A DNA stretch of 64,000 nucleotides, taken from assembly GCF_029223285.1 (NCBI RefSeq), contig NZ_JARHUJ010000003.1, positions 124,001 to 188,000 on the forward strand. Reading direction: 5' to 3'. The DNA is from Paraflavitalea sp. CAU 1676. GTDB taxonomy: Bacteria; Bacteroidota; Bacteroidia; Chitinophagales; Chitinophagaceae. The stretch's first letter is position 1, and each line of letters begins with the position of its first letter. The notes below the pieces were generated by a model, which saw only the letters and a list, made by a program, of their open reading frames with translations, searched no databases and was not told the DNA's origin. Shown here in pieces: positions 47,294 to 60,260 of the stretch. The position numbers and the translations under genes were made by a program.

Positions 47294-48379
47294 ATGTTAG
47301 TGGCAAAACGCACTGCATTGGCAGTGGCCTTTTCAGCAATCCTGTTGATTGTACTCATTATTTCCTGCAGAAAGCAAAAAATACCAGGTATGTCAATGGA
47401 AGATAAACAAATTGATTACCCGGCAGCCTATGTCGTCAATGGGGAAAGCAGTACTATTTCTGTTATTGACCTCGATAAAAACACCGTCACAGAAACCCTG
47501 GAATTAATGGAGACGGACAATGAAATGGTCATGTGGCCGCATCACCTGTCTTTATACAGCATTTTTGATATGCACCGCCTCGCCATTGGCGTGCCGGGAA
47601 TGGATCTGAGCGCAGGCCATTCCGGTGGCATGAATGATATGAAAGGCAAGGTCCTGATAATGGACGCTGTTAAGGGGAAAATATTGAAAACGGTGAACTT
47701 GCCGGTATCTAATCACAATGCCATGTACTCTCCCAATGGCCGTGAAATATGGGTATCTCAAATGGAAATGAACGGCAAAGTGCTCGTTTATGATGGTCAA
47801 ACCTATGCTTTGAAAAATACCATAGCCGTAGGTATGGAACCTGCTGAAGTCAGCTTTTCCGCCGACGGCTCGAAAGCCTACGTAGCCAACGGAGGAGACA
47901 ACACTGTTTCTGTCATTGATCCTGTAAACAAAACCATTATAGCCACCATTCCTGTGGGCGCTGAACCTGTGGGCGCGTGGGTAGGCTATGACGGCAAAAT
48001 GTATGTGGACAATGAGGAAGGCAAAACGATCAGCGTTGTTGATGTGTCTACCAATGCGGTCCTCCAGACTCTTGATTTAGGATTTATGCCCGGCAGTGCT
48101 GCACATAACGCTGCCAAAAAAGAGCTGTGGGTAACAGACCCGGATAATGGCAAGGTACACTACTGGTCCTGGGATGGGTCCGGTAACCAGTGGACCCATG
48201 CTGGTAGCTTCAATACAGCCGCAGGAGCGCATGCCGTTGCCTTTACGGCTGATGGCAATAGGGCCTACGTCACTAATCAAATGGCCGCCTCTGTTTCTGT
48301 GATCAATGTAAATAACCATTCAAAAATAAAAGACATTTCGGTAGGGAAAAAGCCAAACGGAATTGTATTGAAACCATAA
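47294..48379 (+). CDS. YVTN/YncE-like beta-propeller lipoprotein
   Basis: 361 residues with a lipoprotein signal ending LIISC|R. The body is a seven-bladed propeller with repeats such as VVNGESSTISVIDLDKNTV, YVANGGDNTVSVIDPVNKTI and YVTNQMAASVSVINVNNHSK. His/Met-rich loops (NEMVMWPHHLSLYSIFDMHR, MDLSAGHSGGMNDM) are unusual for the family and could bind copper. No catalytic motif is visible. It is periplasmic or surface-located, in line with a run of copper genes. Confidence 0.8.
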   Translation: MLVAKRTALAVAFSAILLIVLIISCRKQKIPGMSMEDKQIDYPAAYVVNGESSTISVIDLDKNTVTETLELMETDNEMVMWPHHLSLYSIFDMHRLAIGVPGMDLSAGHSGGMNDMKGKVLIMDAVKGKILKTVNLPVSNHNAMYSPNGREIWVSQMEMNGKVLVYDGQTYALKNTIAVGMEPAEVSFSADGSKAYVANGGDNTVSVIDPVNKTIIATIPVGAEPVGAWVGYDGKMYVDNEEGKTISVVDVSTNAVLQTLDLGFMPGSAAHNAAKKELWVTDPDNGKVHYWSWDGSGNQWTHAGSFNTAAGAHAVAFTADGNRAYVTNQMAASVSVINVNNHSKIKDISVGKKPNGIVLKP

Positions 48380-48406: not shown

Positions 48407-48781
48407 ATGAGAACCTTAGTATTTCTTTTTATGACCGTCATTACTTCGTTAACACATCAATCTGTTCTGGCGCAGGATTCCAAAACAGAAACCTTTAAAG
48501 TGTATGGCAACTGTGGGATGTGTAAAAAAAGGATTGAAAAGGCTGCCGTCGGTGAGGGCATAGCAAAAGCAGACTGGAACGTGGAGACAAAAATAATGAC
48601 CATCACCTACGATCCTTCCAAAACCACCAATGCCGCCATCCAGAAAAAAATCGCTGCTGTTGGACATGATACAGAAAAAGAAAAAGCATCTGATTCCGTA
48701 TATAATAAATTACCTGGATGCTGCCTGTATGACAGAAGCAAGGCTGATAAACAAGCTGATCATTCTGGCCATCAGCATTAA
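48407..48781 (+). CDS. Secreted HMA-domain copper-binding protein
   Basis: 124 residues with a signal peptide ending SVLAQ. The HMA domain (about 25-95) has the ligand motif YGNCGMCKKRIE. A second Cys pair (PGCCLYD) and a His-rich tail (ADHSGHQH) follow. It therefore likely binds Cu(I) in the periplasm and may deliver it to the Cus system encoded next. It is encoded 27 bases after the propeller gene and 21 before the DUF3347 gene. Confidence 0.85.
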   Translation: MRTLVFLFMTVITSLTHQSVLAQDSKTETFKVYGNCGMCKKRIEKAAVGEGIAKADWNVETKIMTITYDPSKTTNAAIQKKIAAVGHDTEKEKASDSVYNKLPGCCLYDRSKADKQADHSGHQH

Positions 48782-48802: not shown

Positions 48803-49429
48803 ATGAAAAAGTTATTTTTTGTTTCAATAGCTATAGCATCACTCGTGTTTGTTGCTTGCAACAATAGCGACAATAATAAACAGGCAGAGAACCATGATAT
48901 GGATTCAATGAAAAAAGATTCAGCCGGTCAAACCTCATCGGTGGAAGACAAAGATATTAAGACAGTAGCCGTGGCTTATACCAATGTTGATCCTAAAATA
49001 GCGGCATCAATAAAGGAAATAGTTGACCATTATCTGCATATCAAAAACGCTTTGGTAAGTGACAACAGCGAAGAAGCCGCCAGAGGAAGTGAAGCCATGT
49101 CTTCTGCTTTAGCCAAGATAGACAAATCGGCGTTCACCCCGGAACAGAAAAAAATATATGAGGAAAACGAAGCGGATCTGAAGGAGCACGCCGAACACAT
49201 CAGTAAAAGCAAGATAGATCATCAACGCGAACACTTTTCCATGATGAGCGAGGATGTGTATGCTTTAACTAAGGCTTTCGGCGGTGGGAAAACACTTTAC
49301 CATGATCACTGTCCGATGTATGACGATAACAAAGGGGCCTTGTGGTTAAGCGAAACCGTGGAGATCAAAAACCCTTATTACGGCAGTAAAATGCCGAAAT
49401 GCGGCAAGGTGGAAGAAAAAATCCAGTAA
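48803..49429 (+). CDS. DUF3347 lipoprotein (1)
   Basis: 208 residues with a lipoprotein signal ending VFVAC|N. A Met/His-containing linker (NHDMDSMKKDS) is followed by the DUF3347 domain (about 60-208): IKEIVDHYLHIKNALVSDNS, HREH/HFSMMSED, then the signature YHDHCPMYDDNKGALWLS and NPYYGSKMPKCGKVEE. The same domain is found at the end of some CusB proteins and contributes Met/Cys/His ligands. Periplasmic copper handling is inferred. A second copy is encoded at 56974. Confidence 0.85.
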   Translation: MKKLFFVSIAIASLVFVACNNSDNNKQAENHDMDSMKKDSAGQTSSVEDKDIKTVAVAYTNVDPKIAASIKEIVDHYLHIKNALVSDNSEEAARGSEAMSSALAKIDKSAFTPEQKKIYEENEADLKEHAEHISKSKIDHQREHFSMMSEDVYALTKAFGGGKTLYHDHCPMYDDNKGALWLSETVEIKNPYYGSKMPKCGKVEEKIQ

Positions 49430-49445: not shown

Positions 49446-49922
49446 ATGATAAACATGCGTGCCCTTAAAAAAATAGCGTGGGGTTTATTGATCGTTCTTG
49501 TTTTATTACAGTTTATTCCACGAAGTGTAAACAAGAGTGAGAAAACAACACCTGCGGATATAGCAAACAATTACCAGGTTCCGGTTCAGGTACAGTTGCT
49601 ATTAAAAAAAGCGTGCTATGATTGCCACAGTAATAATACCCGCTACCCGTGGTATGCCGATCTACAGCCATTTCGGTTGTTATTAGACCAACACGTAAGG
49701 GATGGAAAGGAGGAATTAAATTTTAGCGAGTATGGAAGTTATTCAAAAAAAAGACAGTTCAATAAACTCAGGTCAATCGGTGAATCATTGGAGAAAGGAA
49801 CTATGCCGCTCAAATCGTACCGCATCATGCATGCAGATGCGCGGCTAACTGAAGCAGAGAAAGCCGTAGTACTCAAATGGGTTGAAGATACACGCAGGCT
49901 GATCAAAGAAGGTAAAGAATAA
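49446..49922 (+). CDS. Haem-binding-domain protein
   Basis: 158 residues with one N-terminal membrane anchor (about 8-25). The domain contains ACYDCHSNNTRYPWYADLQP, a CxxCH motif that can hold covalent haem, and YRIMHADARLTEAEKAVVLK near the C-terminus, which supplies the distal part. It matches the Haem_bd family common in Bacteroidota. It faces the periplasm and may take part in redox control of copper. It lies 16 bases after DUF3347 and 21 before cusA. Confidence 0.85.
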   Translation: MINMRALKKIAWGLLIVLVLLQFIPRSVNKSEKTTPADIANNYQVPVQVQLLLKKACYDCHSNNTRYPWYADLQPFRLLLDQHVRDGKEELNFSEYGSYSKKRQFNKLRSIGESLEKGTMPLKSYRIMHADARLTEAEKAVVLKWVEDTRRLIKEGKE

Positions 49923-49943
49923 AACCATCTTATAAAATTAATT

Positions 49944-51236
49944 ATGGTTCATAAAATAATAGAATGGTCACTTAAAAACCGATTCATTGTACTGGTGCTG
50001 TCCGGCGGGCTATTTGTATGGGGTTTCTTTTCGGTAAAGAAAAATCCGATTGATGCAATCCCTGATTTATCCGAGAACCAGGTGATCGTATTTACAGAAT
50101 GGATGGGCAGAGGGCCGCAACTAATAGAAGACCAGGTAACTTATCCGCTGGTCACGAATCTGCAGGGGCTTCCGCGTATTAAATACGTACGGGGAACTTC
50201 CATGTTCGGTATGAGCTTTATTTATGTCATTTTTAATGATGATGTGGATATTTACTGGGCCAGAGAAAGGGTATTGGAAAGGTTGAGTACCATTACAAGA
50301 ACTTTACCCACCGGCGTCACACCACAATTAGGTCCTGATGGAACCGGCGTAGGTCATGTTCTTTGGTATACACTCGATGCCCCCAACATGGATTTGGGAG
50401 AACAAAGAGCCTTGCAGGACTGGTATATCAAATTTGCTTTACAGAATGTGGAAGGTGTCAGCGAGATTGCTTCATTTGGTGGATTTCAAAAGCAATACCA
50501 GGTTACTGTTGATCCAAATAAATTACTGTATTATAAATTGTCAGTTCCCGAAGTTATTAACGCAATCCGGTCAAACAATAATGAATCGGGCGGAAGAAAA
50601 TTCGAGTTAAGCGATATAGGATATATTATTAAAACATCCGGTTACCTTAAATCACTGCAGGAGATTGAAAATATACCAGTCAAAAACCAAAGCAGCATTC
50701 CTATTCGGGTAGCAGATGTGGCAACCGTACAAATGACCGGTGAAACGAGGCTGGGTATATTCGATCAGGATGGTCAGGGTGAACGTGTTGGCGGGATCGT
50801 GGTCATGCGTTATGGCCAAAATGCAGCGGCCGTCATTGATAAAGTAAAAGCCAAAATGCAGGAGGTGGCAAAAGGGTTCCCTGAAAAAGTAAAATTCGAT
50901 ATTGTCTATGATCGCGGCGAGTTAATTACAGAATCCATTGATTCTATAAAAAGAACGCTTATTGAAGAAATGATTGTTGTTTCTTTAGTCGTGATCATCT
51001 TTCTTTTTCATTGGCGCAGTGCTTTAAGCATTATTATACAAATCCCCATTACACTGGCTGCCAGTTTTATACTGTTAAATGCCTTCGGCATTTCCTCCAA
51101 TATCATGTCACTTACCGGTATTGCACTGGCCATAGGTGTAATCGTCGACAACGGCATTATCATGAGTGAAAACGCTTATAAACACTTGTCAGTACGATAT
51201 GAAGCCTGGTTAAAACAAAATAAACAATCGGAGTAG
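49944..51236 (+). CDS. cusA: CusA-type Cu/Ag RND pump, N-terminal half
   Basis: 430 residues covering roughly E. coli CusA residues 1-430: an N-terminal membrane helix, the first porter subdomains (WMGRGPQLIEDQVTYPL, GPDGTGVGHVLWYTL), and helices 2-4 including the proton-relay Asp402 in IGVIVDNGIIMSENA. It then stops at TAG 51234 in the cytoplasmic loop before helix 5. The second half begins three bases later in another frame. Each half is otherwise intact, so two polypeptides could assemble; alternatively this is a recent frameshift in one gene. Confidence 0.85.
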   Translation: MVHKIIEWSLKNRFIVLVLSGGLFVWGFFSVKKNPIDAIPDLSENQVIVFTEWMGRGPQLIEDQVTYPLVTNLQGLPRIKYVRGTSMFGMSFIYVIFNDDVDIYWARERVLERLSTITRTLPTGVTPQLGPDGTGVGHVLWYTLDAPNMDLGEQRALQDWYIKFALQNVEGVSEIASFGGFQKQYQVTVDPNKLLYYKLSVPEVINAIRSNNNESGGRKFELSDIGYIIKTSGYLKSLQEIENIPVKNQSSIPIRVADVATVQMTGETRLGIFDQDGQGERVGGIVVMRYGQNAAAVIDKVKAKMQEVAKGFPEKVKFDIVYDRGELITESIDSIKRTLIEEMIVVSLVVIIFLFHWRSALSIIIQIPITLAASFILLNAFGISSNIMSLTGIALAIGVIVDNGIIMSENAYKHLSVRYEAWLKQNKQSE

Positions 51237-51238
51237 TT

Positions 51239-53173
51239 ATGAATTGGTTCAAAAAGAAAAATAAAAAAACAGCAACCTGGATTTCCGAAGAAGAACGGTT
51301 AAAAATAATCGAACAATCCAGTAAGCAGGTATCACGGGGTGTTTTTTTCGCCACAGTGATTATTATTACCTCCTTTCTGCCCGTATTCATGTTGACAGGA
51401 CAGGAAGGTAAACTATTCCACCCGTTGGCCTATACCAAGACATTCATAATGATTGTGGATGCTTTGTTGGTAATCACACTCGCGCCTGTACTGATCTCCT
51501 TTTTCATGAAAGGCAAATTCAGGCCGGACCATGCCAACCCGGTTAACAGGATTTTGGAAAGGATCTATGAACCCATCATAAGAACTGTTTTGAAATGGCG
51601 AAAAACAACTTTGGCCATCAATATCATAGCATTGGTAATCACTATTCCTTTGCTGAAAAGCCTGGGAACTGAGTTTATGCCACCACTCGATGAACAGAGC
51701 ATTTTGTTTATGCCTGTTACTTTACCTGATGTGTCCAACGCAGAGGCAAAGCGCATTTTGCAGGTTCAGGATAAAATTATCAAATCGGTTCCCGAGGTAG
51801 ATAAAGTTCTGGGAAAAGCTGGCCGGGCCAGTACTGCCACCGACAATTCCCCCATCAGCATGATTGAGACGATTATCATGCTGAAACCGAAATCTGCCTG
51901 GCGGCCTGGTCTCACCAAAAAAGATATTGTTAACGAACTGGACGCCAAATTACAGATACCTGGTGTCGTCAATGGCTGGACACAACCCATCATCAACCGC
52001 ATTAACATGCTGGCTACGGGCATCCGTACTGATGTAGGCGTAAAAGTATATGGGCAGAACCTGGATAGCATCGCATCTGTATCAGAACGGGTAAAAAAAG
52101 TACTGGAAGGAACAAAAGGTATTGCTGATCTCTATGTAGAACCGGTGACCGGGGGAAAGTATCTTACCATAAACGTTCGCCGGGCAGATTTAAGCCGTTA
52201 CGGTTTAAATGTTGATGATGTTAACCAAACCGTTGAAACTTCGTTGGGAGGATCAACGATAGGAAATACCATCGAAGGAAGGCAACGTTTTTCTATAGCA
52301 GTTCGCCTGGCGCAGGAATATCGAAACAGCGTGGAACGTATTAAACGCATTCCGCTGGTAAGCCCGGCATTTGGAGAAATCCCCCTATCTGCCGTGGCAG
52401 ACGTAGCTTTTGAAGATGGCCCGCCGATGATCAATTCAGAAAATGCTATGTTAAGAGGCGCAGTTTTATTTAACGTCCGTGACCGGGACCTGGGTAGTAC
52501 GGTAACAGAAGCCATTCAAAAAATGAGCCAGGCCAAAGGCGTATTGCCACAGGGATACTACCTGGAATGGAGCGGGCAATATGAGAACCTGATACGTGGC
52601 CAGCAGACCCTGCTGTGGATAGCGCCCATTGTATTGGTGATCATTTTCTTTTCTCTCTATTTCGCCTTTCATTCAATACGCGAAGCCTTTTTAAGCCTGA
52701 TCACTGTGCCATTCGCCTTAATTGGTGGAGCTTATATGATCTGGATATGGGGCGCCAATCTTTCCGTTGCAGTAGCCGTGGGGTTTATCGCTTTATTCGG
52801 TATAGCCGTGGAAACAGGTATTGTGATGGTTATTTACCTCAACGATGCCATGAAACAATTGGTTACAGAAAAAGGTAATTCCAGCGGGACTATTACCAGG
52901 GAAGATCTTCGCCAGTATGTTATCCATGGCGCTGCCAAACGGCTACGTCCCAAACTAATGACGGTATGTGTATCCTTATTCGGGCTGGTACCTGTTCTAT
53001 GGGCCAGTGGTGTTGGTACAGATGTTATGAAACCTATTGTATTACCCATGATAGGCGGTGTACTTACTTCTTCCACCCATATATTACTGGTAACGCCGCT
53101 GATATTTTTAATGACAAAGGAATATGAATTACGGAAGTATGGAAAACTTGAAATCCATGAGACAGGGCATTAA
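51239..53173 (+). CDS. cusA: CusA-type Cu/Ag RND pump, C-terminal half
   Basis: 644 residues beginning in the cytoplasmic loop (MNWFKKKNKK, then ISEEERLKIIEQ) and continuing through helix 5 (TSFLPVFMLTGQEG) to the end of the pump. The Cu(I)/Ag(I) methionine triad is present: Met158 (LFMPVT), Met208 (SPISMIET) and Met257 (INMLATG), matching E. coli Met573, 623 and 672. Relay residues Glu525 and Lys572 correspond to Glu939 and Lys984. So the copper/silver specificity is retained. The start ATG follows the TAG of the first half by two bases, in frame +2. The last 17 bases overlap the TolC-like gene. Confidence 0.88.
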   Translation: MNWFKKKNKKTATWISEEERLKIIEQSSKQVSRGVFFATVIIITSFLPVFMLTGQEGKLFHPLAYTKTFIMIVDALLVITLAPVLISFFMKGKFRPDHANPVNRILERIYEPIIRTVLKWRKTTLAINIIALVITIPLLKSLGTEFMPPLDEQSILFMPVTLPDVSNAEAKRILQVQDKIIKSVPEVDKVLGKAGRASTATDNSPISMIETIIMLKPKSAWRPGLTKKDIVNELDAKLQIPGVVNGWTQPIINRINMLATGIRTDVGVKVYGQNLDSIASVSERVKKVLEGTKGIADLYVEPVTGGKYLTINVRRADLSRYGLNVDDVNQTVETSLGGSTIGNTIEGRQRFSIAVRLAQEYRNSVERIKRIPLVSPAFGEIPLSAVADVAFEDGPPMINSENAMLRGAVLFNVRDRDLGSTVTEAIQKMSQAKGVLPQGYYLEWSGQYENLIRGQQTLLWIAPIVLVIIFFSLYFAFHSIREAFLSLITVPFALIGGAYMIWIWGANLSVAVAVGFIALFGIAVETGIVMVIYLNDAMKQLVTEKGNSSGTITREDLRQYVIHGAAKRLRPKLMTVCVSLFGLVPVLWASGVGTDVMKPIVLPMIGGVLTSSTHILLVTPLIFLMTKEYELRKYGKLEIHETGH

Positions 53174-54410
53174 ATATATTCTCTTAGTAATCCTGCTGGC
53201 TCCTTTGCAATTATTGGCGCAGCAGCCGACCATTTTACCGCTGGATACTATTCTGCAAAGAATAGACAGAAATAATGTATTGCTACAGTCTTATGGCCTG
53301 AAAGCAGAAAGTTATAAATACAGTGCTGAAGCAGCAACCGGCTGGATGGCTCCCATGGTGGGCGTAGGAACTTTCATGACGCCTTATCCCAATCAAATCA
53401 TTATGGATGGCAGGGACAGAGGAAACCTTATGCTGGCCATCGAACAGGACATACCCAATACGGCAAAGTTAAATGCCAAAAAGAAATACATCGCCTCCCA
53501 GGCAAACGTGGAAAGAGCCAACCGGGATATAACCCTGAATGACTTCAAAGCCCAAGCCAAACGACTTTACTTCAACTGGCTGGTGGCAGCACAACGGGTA
53601 AAAGTGTTGCAGGAGAATGAACGGATCATGGTCATGATGAAAAAGATTGAAGAAGTACGTTATCCCTACAACCAGTCTCAGTTAGGCAGTGTATTTAAAG
53701 CCGATGCCCGCATAGAGGAGAATCGCAACATGATCCGCATGCAGGAAGGTACTATTGCAAAGGCAAGGGCCTGGCTCAACAGCCTGATGAATATGCCGGG
53801 TAATGAAGTCTTTGAGATTGATTCCTTATACCAGCCCGTTTTCGCTCCTTTAGCGTCTTATGATACCACTATGTTAGCCTCTGTACGGAAAGATGTTTTT
53901 AAAATGAATGAAAGCATCCGATCCATGCAATTAAACATTGTGAGCATGCAGAAAGAAAAGAAACCGGACTTCCGTATCCGATTTGACCATATGTATCCCC
54001 TCGATGCAGCCATGCCCACTGCATTCAGCGTGATGGGCATGGTATCTATACCCATTGCTCCCTGGGCTTCCAAAATGTACAAAAATGAAGTTAAAGCCAT
54101 GCAGTATAATATACAGGGCATGGAAAAAGAACGGGCGGCTATGCTCCAGGAAACGCAGGGCATGCTGTATGGAATGCAGTACGAAATCCAATCTATGCAA
54201 AAACGCATTACTGCCATGGAGGAAAAGATTATTCCCGCCCTTAAAAAAACATTCGATGCCAATTTCCTGGTATACCAGGAAAATAAAATACAGTTGCCTG
54301 CTGTCATTGACGCATGGGAAGCGCAAACGATGATGCAAATGAATGTGCTGGATGAAAAATTGAAACTATACGAAATGATTGTGGATTATGAGAAAGAATT
54401 ATATCGTTAA
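53157..54410 (+). CDS. TolC-family outer-membrane channel (CusC-like)
   Basis: 417 residues. I use ATG 53157, which gives a signal peptide ending LQLLAQ; earlier codons at 53124 lie deeper in cusA. The remainder is mainly long alpha helices with coiled-coil heptads ([33 protein letters not shown]) and two repeats as in TolC-type channels. It would form the outer-membrane exit of the Cus pump. Met content is high ([18 protein letters not shown]), consistent with copper export. It overlaps both neighbours, so translation is coupled. Confidence 0.85.
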
Positions 54411-55719
54411 AATACTGGCAGTATCACTGCTGGCATCATTAAGCCTGTTTTCCTGCAAAGACAAGGCAGGCGGTCAGTCTTCTCATGCCGGCCACAAGCA
54501 GGCCCAACAATATACCTGCCCCATGCACCCCCAGGTGATCAGGGATCAACCCGGAACCTGCCCCATCTGCGGAATGGAACTGGTATTGAAAGATTCCAAT
54601 AAGGAATTAGTCGTTGACAGCAGTGTAACCATGCTTACCAAACCTACCAATGAACAGGTGATCGCCAGCGTTCCTGCTATCAAAGCCGAAACCGGTACCC
54701 GCATCAGTTCAGTGGAAGTAAGTGGTAGGATCACCTATGATACCCGCAATCAAACCAGCCTGGCCAGCCGGGTAAGCGGGCGCATCGAAAAATTATTGGT
54801 TAAATACAATTATCAACCGGTAAGGAAAGGACAACTGATCATGGAGATTTATTCACCGGACCTGGCTGCCGTCCAGCGTGAATTGCTATTTGTGGCCAAC
54901 AGCAGCCCAGAAATGCTGGCAGGTGCCAAACAACGATTGATATTATTGGGCATGCCTGCTAATCAGGTTGAACGGGTGATCAAAACAGGTAAAATTTTGT
55001 ACCGCGTTCCGGTATATAGTAATGCGGATGGATATATACTGGACCAAGCAGCGCTCACTTCTTCGCCTGCGGCGGTAACCGGCCCAACAATGGGGCAGCC
55101 TGTTGCGGGAGGAAGTGGTATGGAGGGAATGGGTAGCGGCAGTTCTACCGGCAATACTTCGGTTACGCAGCCAGTAACTACTCCTACTGCTGTTATGATC
55201 CGCGAAGGTCAATACGTAAATGCCGGTCAGACAGTATTTACTATCTACCAGACCACTAACCTGGTCGCAGAATTTGCATTCCTGCCATCATTGTCCCCGC
55301 ACTTAAAAAAAGGACAAAAATTGTTGTTCTTCCCGGCAGGAAACAAAACCGCCATTCAACCCGCCCGTCTAGGTTTAATAGAACCTGTGTTTCGCAATGG
55401 GCAGAACTTCCTGATAGGAAGAGTTTATCTGGAAAAAAACAATTTACAGGTTGGGCAATTGCTTACGGGTATTATCCCGGTTGTTTACACCGGGAATTGG
55501 TGGCTACCTAAAAGGGCTGTCTGGCGGTTAGGCACGAAGTCAGTTGTGTTCAGGAAAAATAATGGTCTGTATACCCCTATGGACATACAAACCGGAATAG
55601 AATCGGAAGGTTTTATTCAAATTATTACTGATGTAGCAGGTTGGCAGATAGCTTCCAACGCAGCTTATCTCGTGGATAGCGAAAGTTTCATAAAAGTAAA
55701 TGGTAAAGCCAAACAGTAG
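54388..55719 (+). CDS. cusB: CusB-like periplasmic adaptor (1) with heavy-metal-binding domain
   Basis: 443 residues from ATG 54388, overlapping the TolC-like gene by 23 bases. A lipoprotein signal ends SLFSC|K. Residues about 33-65 form the heavy-metal-binding domain ([19 protein letters not shown]). The adaptor core follows: barrel-sandwich hybrid ([12 protein letters not shown]), helical hairpin ([13 protein letters not shown]), then beta-barrel. A Gly/Ser/Met insert ([16 protein letters not shown]) near residues 235-255 is unusual. It links the CusA pump to the TolC-like channel. Confidence 0.85.
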
Positions 55720-55722
55720 TAT

Positions 55723-56940
55723 ATGGAAAGAAAACGCTTTATAAAGACCTTGGCTATTTTTGCTATGGCACCACTGCTTGTTTTAGAAGCGTGCAAAGAG
55801 GGTAATAATAATGCGGTACAACAGGTGAAGGCGGATCAGACATACACCTGTCCCATGCATCCGCAGATCGTCCAAAACAAACCGGGAACTTGCCCCATTT
55901 GCGGGATGGACCTGGTGCCCTTCGATAAAAATAATAAAGATGCTTTCCTGACCCTCAGTGAAAGCCAGGTATCGCTGGCGAATGTAACTACTATGACCAT
56001 TGGTGCAGGTGCATTGTCTAATGTAAAACAGTTAAATGGCAGACTTGCTACAGATCCTCAAAAAACAGTAGTCATATCTACCCGGGTACCTGGCAGGATT
56101 GAAGCATTGTACGTAAGGGAAACGGGTGTCAAAGTAAACAAAGGCCAACCCTTGTATAAAATTTACTCTGAACAGCTCGCCACTTTACAACAGGAATACT
56201 TGCTGTCAGCCGCGCAAGCCCGGCAATTCCCGGAAGATGCCCGTTTTCAACAAATAGAGAAAGCTGCCAGGCAGAAACTGGGACTGTATGATCAATCAGA
56301 AGCACAAATCAATCAATTATTGCAGGCTCAAAAGATAAGTCCTTATGTAACCTATTATGCACCCAGCAGTGGTACCGTAGCAGAACTCACTATTGCGGAA
56401 GGACAATATGCCGCAGAAGGTAGTGCCCTTATGAAGCTCGAAGGCTATGGAGAATTATGGGTAGAAGCGGATATTTACCCATCCGAGGCAGGTAGCCTCC
56501 GTGTGAACCAGGCCGTTCAGGTCATTGTAGCCGGTTGGGAAAACAAACCCCAAACCATGACCATTCAATTTATCAATCCTTCTCTTCAAAGCGGTAGCCA
56601 GTTACTACAGGTTCGGGGGACTATTGCCAATCCCGGCAACCAGTGGCAACCAGGACAGCAGGTAAATATCCTGTTACCAGTTAAGGCCAAAACCGATGCG
56701 CTTACATTACCTGTAGATGCAGTGATCAGGGACGGAAAAGGAGCGCATGTCTGGATCGAAACAGCGAAAGGCAAATTTGAGCCCCGCAAAGTAGTTACCG
56801 GTATGGAAAATTTTGAATCAGTAGAAATTATTGAGGGATTAGAAGCAGGCGATACAGTAGTTATCACGGGGGCCTATTTGCTATATAGTGAATTTATACT
56901 AAAGAAAGGTGCTGATCCGATGGCAACACATCAACATTAA
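55723..56940 (+). CDS. cusB: CusB-like periplasmic adaptor (2) with heavy-metal-binding domain
   Basis: 405 residues with a signal ending VLEAC|K (lipoprotein). A heavy-metal-binding domain at about 38-68 ([19 protein letters not shown]) precedes a standard adaptor: STRVPGRIEALYV, hairpin EQLATLQQEYLLSAA, SSGTVAELTIAEGQY, WVEADIYPSEAG and GAHVWIETAKG. The C-terminus is short and ends HQH. It begins three bases after the first adaptor. Two adaptors behind one pump suggest a mixed or alternating adaptor ring. Confidence 0.87.
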   Translation: MERKRFIKTLAIFAMAPLLVLEACKEGNNNAVQQVKADQTYTCPMHPQIVQNKPGTCPICGMDLVPFDKNNKDAFLTLSESQVSLANVTTMTIGAGALSNVKQLNGRLATDPQKTVVISTRVPGRIEALYVRETGVKVNKGQPLYKIYSEQLATLQQEYLLSAAQARQFPEDARFQQIEKAARQKLGLYDQSEAQINQLLQAQKISPYVTYYAPSSGTVAELTIAEGQYAAEGSALMKLEGYGELWVEADIYPSEAGSLRVNQAVQVIVAGWENKPQTMTIQFINPSLQSGSQLLQVRGTIANPGNQWQPGQQVNILLPVKAKTDALTLPVDAVIRDGKGAHVWIETAKGKFEPRKVVTGMENFESVEIIEGLEAGDTVVITGAYLLYSEFILKKGADPMATHQH

Positions 56941-56973
56941 AAACAACCTGAATATTTACCTAAAAATTAAAAC

Positions 56974-57540
56974 ATGAAACAGTTTCTTAAAGTGGTTATT
57001 CCTGCATTTTCCGTACTATTTATTGCCGCCTGCGGTGATGGAAATTCCAATGGCAATACCGATAACAAGGATAGCGCAAGCCACACCGGCCATGATGAAA
57101 TGAAAATGGAAGAAGGCAAAACGTCCTCACCAGCAGTAAAGTTGAAAGACGATAAACTCAATGCTGTTTATCAGCATTATGTACACCTGACAACTGCCCT
57201 GACCAATGGGGATATGGCCGAAGCCAAAGTTGCCAGCAATGCCATCGAAGCAGGAGCAAAAGAGATTCCAGGAGCAGAAACAGTTGTCTCCAATGCTACA
57301 AAAATTACTGCAGCAACAGACATTGAAGTGCAGCGAACTGCTTACTCTACTTTGAGTAATGATTTTATCGCCCTTGTAAAGAAGTCAGGTCTTAATTCCG
57401 GTGAACTGTATGTGGATTACTGCCCAATGGCTTTGAATGATAAAGGAGCTTCCTGGATCAGCCCCAACAAAGAAATCAGAAACCCTTACTTCGGTGAAAA
57501 AATGATGACGTGCGGAGAGGTAAAAGAAACTATTAAATAA
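56974..57540 (+). CDS. DUF3347 lipoprotein (2)
   Basis: 188 residues with a lipoprotein signal ending FIAAC|G, then a linker with HTGHDEMKMEEG. The DUF3347 domain (about 50-188) has LNAVYQHYVHLTTALTNGDM and the C-terminal signature YVDYCPMALNDKGASWIS, NPYFGEKMMTCGEV. It is a paralogue of the protein at 48803; both copies flank the efflux genes. Periplasmic copper delivery to the adaptor is a plausible role because some CusB proteins carry this domain in cis. Confidence 0.85.
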   Translation: MKQFLKVVIPAFSVLFIAACGDGNSNGNTDNKDSASHTGHDEMKMEEGKTSSPAVKLKDDKLNAVYQHYVHLTTALTNGDMAEAKVASNAIEAGAKEIPGAETVVSNATKITAATDIEVQRTAYSTLSNDFIALVKKSGLNSGELYVDYCPMALNDKGASWISPNKEIRNPYFGEKMMTCGEVKETIK

Positions 57541-57567
57541 ACGTCTTACCGCTAAACAACATTCAAT

Positions 57568-58143
57568 ATGTTTCAATCAATTTCTGTATCCAGGCTCTGG
57601 CTGGTAATTATTTTGCTGAGCGGAACTTTGGAATTACAGGCACAAAAAGAGGCGGTTTGTTACAACCCCAACCTAATGAAAGACACGAGTAAACGGAGCA
57701 TTAAATCCGCCGCTGTTGGGGTAATTAGTCTTGATTCTGTTAAGATCAATTATCACTCGCCGGGTGTCAGAGGCAGGATAATTTGGGGTGGGTTGGTGCC
57801 TTATGACGAGGTCTGGGTAACGGGTGCCCATGATGCAACCACCCTTGAAGTAGCCCATCCCTTTATTGTAGGCGGAAAAGAGATCCCTGCCGGCAAGTAT
57901 GCTTTATTCACCATTCCTGGTAAAAAAGAATGGACGGTGATCATCAACTCAAAATGGCAGCAACACCTTGCCACAGAATATGATCAGAAAGAAGATCTGA
58001 TAAGAATTAAGGTCAAACCAATAAAACATGCACTGACGGAACGATTACAGTATTTTATAGTACCGGGTAAAGGCAATACAGGTAGGATTGCTGTGGCCTG
58101 GGAAAAATTACGTATTGAATTTCCCATCACAGTTAAAGGTTAA
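57568..58143 (+). CDS. DUF2911 protein
   Basis: 191 residues with a signal peptide ending LELQAQ. The DUF2911 domain fills the rest: VKINYHSPGVRGRIIWGGLV (about 50-69), PYDEVWVTGAHDATTLEV, IPAGKYALFTIPGKKEWTVI and the end IAVAWEKLRIEFPI. This is a secreted beta-sandwich family widespread in Bacteroidota with no known function. Its inclusion in the copper cluster, between DUF3347 and the ATPase, is probably meaningful but not explained. Confidence 0.85.
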   Translation: MFQSISVSRLWLVIILLSGTLELQAQKEAVCYNPNLMKDTSKRSIKSAAVGVISLDSVKINYHSPGVRGRIIWGGLVPYDEVWVTGAHDATTLEVAHPFIVGGKEIPAGKYALFTIPGKKEWTVIINSKWQQHLATEYDQKEDLIRIKVKPIKHALTERLQYFIVPGKGNTGRIAVAWEKLRIEFPITVKG

Positions 58144-58181
58144 AGTACTGGTTCCCAATTATCCACCATAAATAGCCGATT

Positions 58182-60260
58182 ATGAACCATGAACACCATC
58201 ATCATCGTGGCGAACCGAAATCAAAACAAGCGCATGACCATCATGTCCATGCAGAAATGCAGCAATCCAGCAAGCAACAGCACAACCAAGCCGACCATCA
58301 GATGCACGATGAACATGCAGGTCATCATACGGAAGGTTTTCTGAAACGGTTCTGGATTTGCCTGGTTGTTACCATTCCTGTTTTACTGTTATCCCACATG
58401 ATCCAGCAATGGCTGGGCTTTACATTCACCTTTACGGGAGATAAATATGTCCTGTTAGGTTTAAGCAGTTTTATCTTTTTCTACGGAGGCTGGCCCTTCC
58501 TGGTTGGCTTGGTTCGGGAACTAAGATGGGGCAATCCAGGCATGATGACACTGGTGGCCGTTGCTATAACTACCGCTTATGTGTACAGCGTAGCAGTTGT
58601 TTTTGGTTTACCCGGCATGGACTTCTTTTGGGAACTGGCGACCTTGATTGATATCATGTTATTAGGCCATTGGTTGGAAATGAAATCGCAGATGGCCGCT
58701 TCCCAGGCTTTAGAATCGCTGGTTGCCTTGTTACCCGCAGTAGTTCATGTGGAACGGGACGGAGCAGTCTTAGATATTCCATTAAAAGAATTGGAGAATA
58801 AGCAGGTTGTTATGGTGAAACCTGGCGAAAAAGTTCCAGCCGATGGCCATATATTGGAAGGAACATCTTATGTAAATGAAAGTATGTTGACCGGGGAAAG
58901 TGTACCGGTAAAGAAAGAAAAAGACGATAAAGTAATCGGAGGAGCTATCAACGGTGATGGCGTACTAAAGATTGAAATAACCGGCGCTGGAAGCGATAGT
59001 TATCTCAACAAGGTGATTAATATGGTTCAGTCGGCACAGGGCACAAAATCTAAGACCCAAAACCTAGCCAACAAGGTCGCCAAATGGTTAACAATTGTGT
59101 CGATCAGTATAGGAATCATTACATTTATTGTCTGGCTCTCTGCTGGCAGGGAGTTATCTTTTGCGCTGGAACGGATGGTAACTGTAATGGTGACGTCCTG
59201 CCCCCATGCACTTGGGGTGGCGATCCCTTTGGTAGTAGCTATTTCAACTACCTTATCCGCTGTTCACGGCTTATTGATCCGTAACCGTACTGCGTTTGAA
59301 AATGCAAGAAAACTAACGACCATCATTTTTGATAAGACGGGAACACTGACTAAAGGCACTCACGAGGTTCAGCAAATCATCCCCCTTAATGGGCAATACA
59401 CACCTGAGCAGTTGTTGCAATATGTGGCGGCTATCCAACAAAACTCTGAACACCATATTGCTCATGGGATCATCCGCCGGTTGAAACAGCAAAACCTCGA
59501 ACTCTGGAAATCCAATGACTTTCAGTACATGCAGGGCATAGGCGTTTCCGGCATTGTAAACGGAAAAAAAGTGGTAGCTGCGGGTCCCAATTACTTTACC
59601 CAGCAAAAAACAAATGTTCCTGCGATCCCTGAAGGAATAGATCAAACTACAGATACTGTTATCTTCGTATTGATTGATGATACCCCGGTTGGCGTCATCA
59701 CCCTTGCAGACAGCATACGTGAAACTGCCGCAGAAGCCATTGCAACGCTTAAGCAAATGAACATAAAGTCCTTCCTGTTAACCGGCGACAATGAGAAAAT
59801 AGCTGCTGCGGTAGCACAAAAGTTGCAAATGGATGGTTATCTAGCCAATGTTCTACCACACGAAAAACAAAGCAAAGTCAAAGAGTTCCAGGACAAAGGA
59901 GAGATCGTAGCGATGACAGGTGACGGAGTAAACGATGCACCCGCATTGGCCCAGGCTGATGTCGGGATTGCCGTAGGCTCAGGAACGGATGTAGCCGCAG
60001 AAACTGCAGATATTATTTTAGTGAATAGTGATCCGAAAGACGTTGTACAGATGATCGCTTTTGGCAGGGCTACTTACAGAAAAATGATTCAAAATCTGTT
60101 TTGGGCAGTCGGATACAACGTGATAGCGATCCCTCTGGCAGCGGGCATATTGTATCCAACATTTATGCTTAGCCCTGCCATGGGAGCTGTTTTGATGAGT
60201 TTAAGCACCGTGGTTGTTGCCATTAATGCTAGCTTTCTGAAAATAAAGAATAAATCATAG
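58182..60260 (+). CDS. copB: CopB-type copper-translocating P-type ATPase
   Basis: 692 residues. The N-terminus (1-45) is His-rich (MNHEHHHHRGEP, HHVHAEMQQ, HDEHAGHHTEG) and has no HMA domain. Eight membrane helices, the actuator loop (TGESVPV), the CPH motif at Cys340 (TSCPHALGVA), the phosphorylation site Asp384 in FDKTGTLTKG, and MTGDGVNDAPAL are all present. CPH instead of CPC together with the His-rich tail is typical of CopB-type pumps, which export Cu (and Ag) from cytoplasm to periplasm, feeding the Cus complex. A C-terminal fragment of a related ATPase is at 42328. Confidence 0.92.
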   Translation: MNHEHHHHRGEPKSKQAHDHHVHAEMQQSSKQQHNQADHQMHDEHAGHHTEGFLKRFWICLVVTIPVLLLSHMIQQWLGFTFTFTGDKYVLLGLSSFIFFYGGWPFLVGLVRELRWGNPGMMTLVAVAITTAYVYSVAVVFGLPGMDFFWELATLIDIMLLGHWLEMKSQMAASQALESLVALLPAVVHVERDGAVLDIPLKELENKQVVMVKPGEKVPADGHILEGTSYVNESMLTGESVPVKKEKDDKVIGGAINGDGVLKIEITGAGSDSYLNKVINMVQSAQGTKSKTQNLANKVAKWLTIVSISIGIITFIVWLSAGRELSFALERMVTVMVTSCPHALGVAIPLVVAISTTLSAVHGLLIRNRTAFENARKLTTIIFDKTGTLTKGTHEVQQIIPLNGQYTPEQLLQYVAAIQQNSEHHIAHGIIRRLKQQNLELWKSNDFQYMQGIGVSGIVNGKKVVAAGPNYFTQQKTNVPAIPEGIDQTTDTVIFVLIDDTPVGVITLADSIRETAAEAIATLKQMNIKSFLLTGDNEKIAAAVAQKLQMDGYLANVLPHEKQSKVKEFQDKGEIVAMTGDGVNDAPALAQADVGIAVGSGTDVAAETADIILVNSDPKDVVQMIAFGRATYRKMIQNLFWAVGYNVIAIPLAAGILYPTFMLSPAMGAVLMSLSTVVVAINASFLKIKNKS

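Follow-up and report, generated by a model that had tools for sequence, protein, structure and literature searches.

The usual description of an RND exporter is a trimer of a chain with 12 helices, in which the loop between the fourth and fifth transmembrane helices (TM4 and TM5) is cytoplasmic. E. coli has one CusB adaptor, and in its CusBA complex six adaptors are arranged on three permeases. Each of the relay residues Asp, Glu and Lys is essential in CusA, and the transmembrane methionine pairs of CusA are named, in an excerpt of PMC8092243. Divided or multi-gene RND systems have also been described. SecD and SecF make up an RND-type unit encoded by two genes in E. coli and by one chain in many bacteria (PMC5963308, in excerpt). 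MdtBC is an RND pump made from two gene products, and TriABC-OpmH has two adaptor genes in one RND operon, according to an excerpt of PMC8277102. Among the matches listed, no description of a divided CusA was found in the titles and abstract openings of open-licence PMC papers.

We analyzed a 64,000-nucleotide stretch of the Paraflavitalea sp. CAU 1676 genome (the window), in which a CusA-type gene is present as two halves. A stable two-polypeptide RND pump, considered in an earlier sequence-only reading, is the best reading of this locus, and a large clade shares the arrangement. The gene is not broken; the split is genuine and conserved. Very probably, the locus encodes an RND permease of the heavy-metal (Cu/Ag) type, normally synthesized as two separate polypeptides that then re-associate. 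In an entire branch of related bacteria the pump appears to be built from two proteins, which a few members appear to have rejoined later.

The divided permease and its gene cluster

The permease halves and their neighbors in the window are as follows.

48407..48781, + strand, heavy-metal-associated (HMA) domain protein, same cluster
48803..49429, + strand, DUF3347 protein, same cluster
49446..49922, + strand, haem-binding-domain protein directly upstream of the N half
49944..51236, + strand, CusA N half, 430 aa: TM1-TM4, first periplasmic region, relay Asp402
51234..51241, + strand, junction TAG-TT-ATG: N-half stop and C-half start 2 bases apart; the spacing varies in relatives
51239..53173, + strand, CusA C half, 644 aa: TM5-TM12, second periplasmic region, Met triad, relay Glu525/Lys572
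53124..54410, + strand, outer membrane efflux protein, CusC/TolC type (Pfam OEP)
54379..55719, + strand, first CusB-type adaptor (M1) with a heavy-metal-binding domain (Pfam HlyD_D23, HMBD)
55723..56940, + strand, second CusB-type adaptor (M2) with a heavy-metal-binding domain (Pfam HlyD_D23, HMBD)
56974..57540, + strand, second DUF3347 protein, downstream of the adaptors

The outer membrane protein frame as listed runs into the end of the C half, and its true start may be further downstream. A beta-propeller protein of the YNCE/lactonase type precedes the copper cluster at 47294-48379.

The N half ends with the TAG at 51234-51236, and the ATG of the C half follows two bases past it in frame +2. 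The cut lies between TM4 and TM5 of a CusA-like pump, as the sequence-only reading had placed it. That reading also described the halves as having overlapping frames. The frames do differ, but the two coding regions do not overlap: upstream of its ATG the C-half frame is open for only five codons (649 aa in total). An A-rich segment had been noted on both sides of the break and taken to point to a small duplication that separated the halves. The segments, at 51207 and 51245, are present but agree at only 13 of 19 positions, and of 200 dinucleotide shuffles made of the 120-nt region, 109 had a best pair that equalled or surpassed this one. The pair is thus at chance level and is no evidence for a duplication. 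A local duplication as the cause of the split was rejected, since the split is also old and shared and its junctions are variable.

Both halves align to the NCBIfam CusA/CzcA model TIGR00914, the N half over model positions 1-424 (439.5 bits) and the C half over 424-1037 (621.6 bits). Each alone is below the cut-off of 701.45 bits, which is set for one whole protein. Pfam ACR_tran, the AcrB/AcrD/AcrF family, covers 1-422 in the N half and 417-1019 in the C half, and neither half has another Pfam match at E <= 0.001. HME-RND members such as CusA and CzcA are one polypeptide of about 1040 aa. Here there are two genes, of 430 and 644 aa, and we therefore class the protein as a two-subunit variant and not as an ordinary HME-RND member. 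Outer-membrane channel and adaptor genes adjoin the permease halves, as in tripartite RND exporters.

The nearest solved structure for either half is E. coli CusA. As the sequence-only reading had stated, both halves look intact, and all relay and Met triad residues are present in alignments to CusA. D405 of CusA corresponds to D402 in the N half, and E939 and K984 to E525 and K572 in the C half. The Met triad M573/M623/M672 corresponds to M158/M208/M257 in the C half. By hand counting on the alignments, the CusA transmembrane pair M391-M1009 is found across the break as M388 (N half) and M597 (C half); in each of the other two pairs one partner is not Met here.

The split in the same genome and in relatives

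The same genome contains two further split copies, with protein identities of 97% and 87-88%. The nearer copy (L009) matches positions 49880-60255 of the window, a stretch with the copper cluster, over 10.4 kb at 87% DNA identity. In 59 genomes (this one and relatives), every listed C-half match of at least 54% identity that covers most of the query is a half-size open frame. In a sample of the class, 56 of 395 genomes contain a match at E <= 1e-130, with 67 matches in all. The sequence-only reading had proposed looking for the split in related genomes and had named uniformly single-frame homologues as evidence against it. The opposite was found, and most relatives at or above 50% identity carry the split: among 64 class matches at that level, the halves are separate genes in 59 (N half first in 53, C half first in 6) and fused in four (G069, G435, G149 and G063), and the C half is interrupted in one (G198). 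These junctions were settled from fetched DNA, except in G033 and G285, which were called split from neighboring N-half frames of 459 and 450 aa. Matches at E <= 1e-150 occur in 2 of 5 genomes of the genus and 107 of 294 of the family; these counts refer to matches and not to checked junctions.

Among named public genomes, the split is seen, for example, in Chitinophaga eiseniae, Pedobacter caeni, Niastella populi, Flavobacterium cauense, Runella limosa, Cytophaga aurantiaca and Mucilaginibacter lappiensis. Twelve plasmid records match at 60-80% identity, all Bacteroidota by name. In both plasmids examined (Runella and Mucilaginibacter), RefSeq has the halves as separate CDS, each named ‘efflux RND transporter permease subunit’; half genes are thus already in databases. 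Many other RND permeases of these relatives (e.g. L053-L065, L067) have open frames of about 1440-1530 aa, a length that suggests an extra fused domain, perhaps an outer-membrane channel.

For junction analysis, 187 C-half matches in fetched loci were reduced to 174 distinct ones, and to 155 after near-copies (98.5% identity or more) were taken out. This set leaves out tblastn matches below 38% identity or 450 residues (hence G198/L134), loci of other RND pumps (L001-L008, L011-L037, L053-L067) and loci refetched with wider flanks (L084, L086, L088, L090, L092-L094). Of the 155 rows, 120 are split with the N half first, 22 are fused, and a further 5 are fused rows truncated at the end of the locus; 5 are reordered, 2 lack an N half and 1 is at an edge. 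As to the 2 that lack it, the N half of L096 is downstream on the adjoining locus L139, and L177 begins near a contig end. In the 120 N-first splits the C half is in frame +2 in 66, +1 in 42 and 0 in 12. The start offsets seen most often are -4 (28 rows, an ATGA overlap), +2 (16) and -1 (8). The C half starts within 30 nt of the N-half stop in 105 of the 120, where the start was taken as the candidate nearest that stop, a choice biased towards coupling.

Several loci contain genes between the halves, encoding heavy-metal-binding-domain proteins (L101, L104), a methyltransferase (L100) or an unidentified protein (L103). The N half is behind the C half in eight loci (L097, L098, L099, L105, L107, L096 with L139, L251 and L252), the last two from the same phylum but a different class. 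In them the C half is followed in turn by the outer membrane protein gene, two adaptor genes and the N half, with one to three additional genes before the N half in some; the middle genes of L251 and L252 were named from ORF order and length only. In L128 and L256 the halves are parted solely by an in-frame TGA, and the genome search gave open frames of 1067 and 1092 aa, respectively. An open frame above 1000 aa alone was therefore not taken as proof of fusion. Of four family rows with such frames, three are single ORFs, and L256 is two ORFs with the TGA between them. A read-through product may be made at L128 and L256. In L203 (5968-11292) the split pump has no outer-membrane or adaptor gene within the fetched flanks, and is followed by an 873-aa ORF that by eye is P-type ATPase-like.

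Both halves are under strong purifying selection. In three pairs with unsaturated dS, dN/dS is 0.011-0.029 for the N half and 0.024-0.032 for the C half; dS was saturated in five other pairs for each half. The relay Asp is present in 152 of 152 rows with data, and the Met triad is invariant in 69 of 69 aligned C halves. The relay Glu or Lys has changed to another residue in 20 of the 119 split rows that have data, compared to 0 of 23 fused rows with data. Eight of these are Glu to Gln at the equivalent of CusA E939 (L048, L085, L089, L095, L101, L102, L104, L106), and twelve are Lys to Ile, Leu or Val. The count was made before near-copy removal, with 20 split and 4 cut fused rows lacking data. 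These replacements suggest that some members may be uncoupled or work differently, and that the clade may contain pumps with altered proton coupling.

Sequencing and assembly errors are common in A-rich stretches, and the halves could in principle be the remains of a cusA broken by such an indel or by recent pseudogene formation. NolGHI, named as three genes, is treated as a single gene in an excerpt of PMC8277102. However, three copies in one genome and most relatives with at least 50% identity share the split, dN/dS is 0.01-0.03 in both halves, and some genomes have the gene order reversed or genes inserted. The variation in junction spacing and frame, interposed genes and reversed order exclude an assembly indel, and with the conserved split and low dN/dS we consider the probability of an error or pseudogene vanishingly small. 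Programmed frameshifting or stop read-through could instead yield a full-length protein from the two frames. The C-half frame in the window is open a few codons into the N half, and the in-frame TGA in L128 and L256 would suit read-through. By eye, no slippery heptamer was seen in the short open-frame overlap of the window. The same variation among junctions excludes frameshifting as a general mechanism, which cannot serve the reordered loci, and we regard this explanation as extremely improbable. It is also very improbable that the halves no longer cooperate and one has taken a separate role. The relay changes in the 20 split rows would fit such a role, but the N half is close by in 126 of 128 split-lineage rows of the 155-row set (the other two, L177 and L190, start at a contig end), constraint on the two halves is similar, and the relay Asp and Met triad do not vary.

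Probable fission and re-fusion, and adaptor number

Two trees were made from hand-chosen sets of 52 and 60 rows, and the split clade has 100/100 support in both. The 52-row tree flagged a long branch, L131; the 60-row tree leaves out L131-L133. In the latter, all split and reordered rows are in the one clade, joined by eight fused rows. Six fused rows are outside it: L136 (titled Pelobacter), L207, L213 and L214 (Ignavibacteria, Chlorobiaceae and Geobacter), L219 (Bacteroidetes) and L245 (a phylum locus). The minimum number of changes between fused and split is eight, and well-supported branches force at least seven for the fused label. The same split clade, here with 82 rows and support 100, was recovered in a FastTree of 93 rows, which required five changes; five was the count in the earlier trees, which held fewer nested fused rows. 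With eight changes and fused outgroups, the tree is most simply explained by one old fission followed by about seven re-fusions.

Adaptor number was counted with wide flanks for 77 of the 155 rows. At least two CusB-type adaptor genes are found in 65 of 66 split, reordered or N-less rows, L203 being the exception, compared to one in 10 of 10 outgroup fused rows. The nested fused loci have two in eight of eight cases (L188, L110, L118, L140, L141 and L253-L255); L188 is among the 77 wide-flank rows, and L110, L118, L140 and L141 have shorter flanks. Retention of two adaptors in the nested fused loci provides independent support for re-fusion.

Alternatively, fused ancestors could have been split repeatedly and independently. 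In favor of this, the tree intermingles fused and split forms, and the loop in those nested fused forms in which it was measured (36-40 aa) is similar in length to that in outgroup fused forms (33-41 aa). On the other side are the parsimony count with its fused outgroup and the nested fused loci, which match split loci in adaptor number where outgroup fused loci do not. In addition, a loop stretch of the fused L253, 82-83% identical to the window, resembles the free N tail of the window by eye. Repeated independent splitting is therefore unlikely, and a single fission with later re-fusions is preferred.

A proposed two-chain pump and its relation to known systems

The proton relay spans the break, suggesting that the halves assemble into one CusA-like unit, with copper as the putative substrate. 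In the mechanism we propose, a single ancestral cusA would have been divided in the cytoplasmic TM4-TM5 loop. A cut at this position leaves 4-TM and 8-TM chains with cytosolic ends, each of which should be able to insert into the membrane alone. The close spacing in most genomes may allow translational coupling to balance the two halves. The halves would then re-associate into a CusA-like protomer, and three protomers (N3C3) would form the pump, coupled to an outer-membrane channel and to two distinct adaptors of the CusB type. Proton coupling would cross the chain boundary between Asp402 in the N half and Glu525/Lys572 in the C half. Because the two chains share out relay residues that are essential in CusA, pumping by one half without the other is not expected.

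Models of the halves alone are of moderate confidence (pLDDT 77 for N, 74 for C) and superpose loosely on CusA, with TM 0.55 and rmsd 12.5 for the N half and TM 0.67 and rmsd 6.9 for the C half. They are little informative about how the halves assemble. The N-half model ends with a helix at 387-429, and the C-half model has a low-confidence head (1-13) before its first helix. Low-confidence stretches in the C half at 149-165, 191-211 and 244-262 are those with the Met triad. The metal site may need the N half to form, or the alignment there may merely be shallow.

With six adaptors per three permeases in CusBA, a mixed adaptor ring of three plus three is possible. We put forward, as a tentative and rather doubtful extension, an obligate hetero-oligomeric exporter made up of three N chains, three C chains and a mixed adaptor ring with three copies of each of two adaptors. 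Permease fission and adaptor duplication would have been simultaneous, each chain type would have its own adaptor, and re-fused members would keep the mixed ring.

A clade with the active site divided between two chains would offer a natural setting in which halves can be split, swapped and mixed to test the coupling between proton relay and metal pathway. It is, in addition, a clear-cut example of one gene fission with repeated later re-fusions. Annotation that expects one chain of about 1040 aa may overlook such pumps or flag them as broken.

Among divided RND-superfamily proteins, SecD/SecF is similar to the window pump in being a pair. SecD and SecF have six TM helices each, whereas the 4+8 cut here passes through the first repeat, and SecDF helps in protein secretion and does not belong to the tripartite exporters. 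SecDF membership was considered for the window pair and rejected on the 4+8 cut and on ACR_tran being the sole Pfam match in both halves. MdtBC is similar in that two gene products form one RND pump; MdtB and MdtC, however, are two full-length homologues, not halves. The cluster resembles TriABC-OpmH in its two adaptor genes, with TriC being a single-chain drug RND pump. NolGHI is comparable as one RND protein named as three genes, and its early split was a sequencing error. The closest system is E. coli CusCBA (PDB 3k07, 3ne5). The window pump is homologous to CusA over nearly the whole length, with relay and Met triad conserved, and its neighbors are CusC- and CusB-type genes. Unlike CusA, which is one chain, it consists of two chains cut at TM4-TM5 and is accompanied by two adaptor genes.
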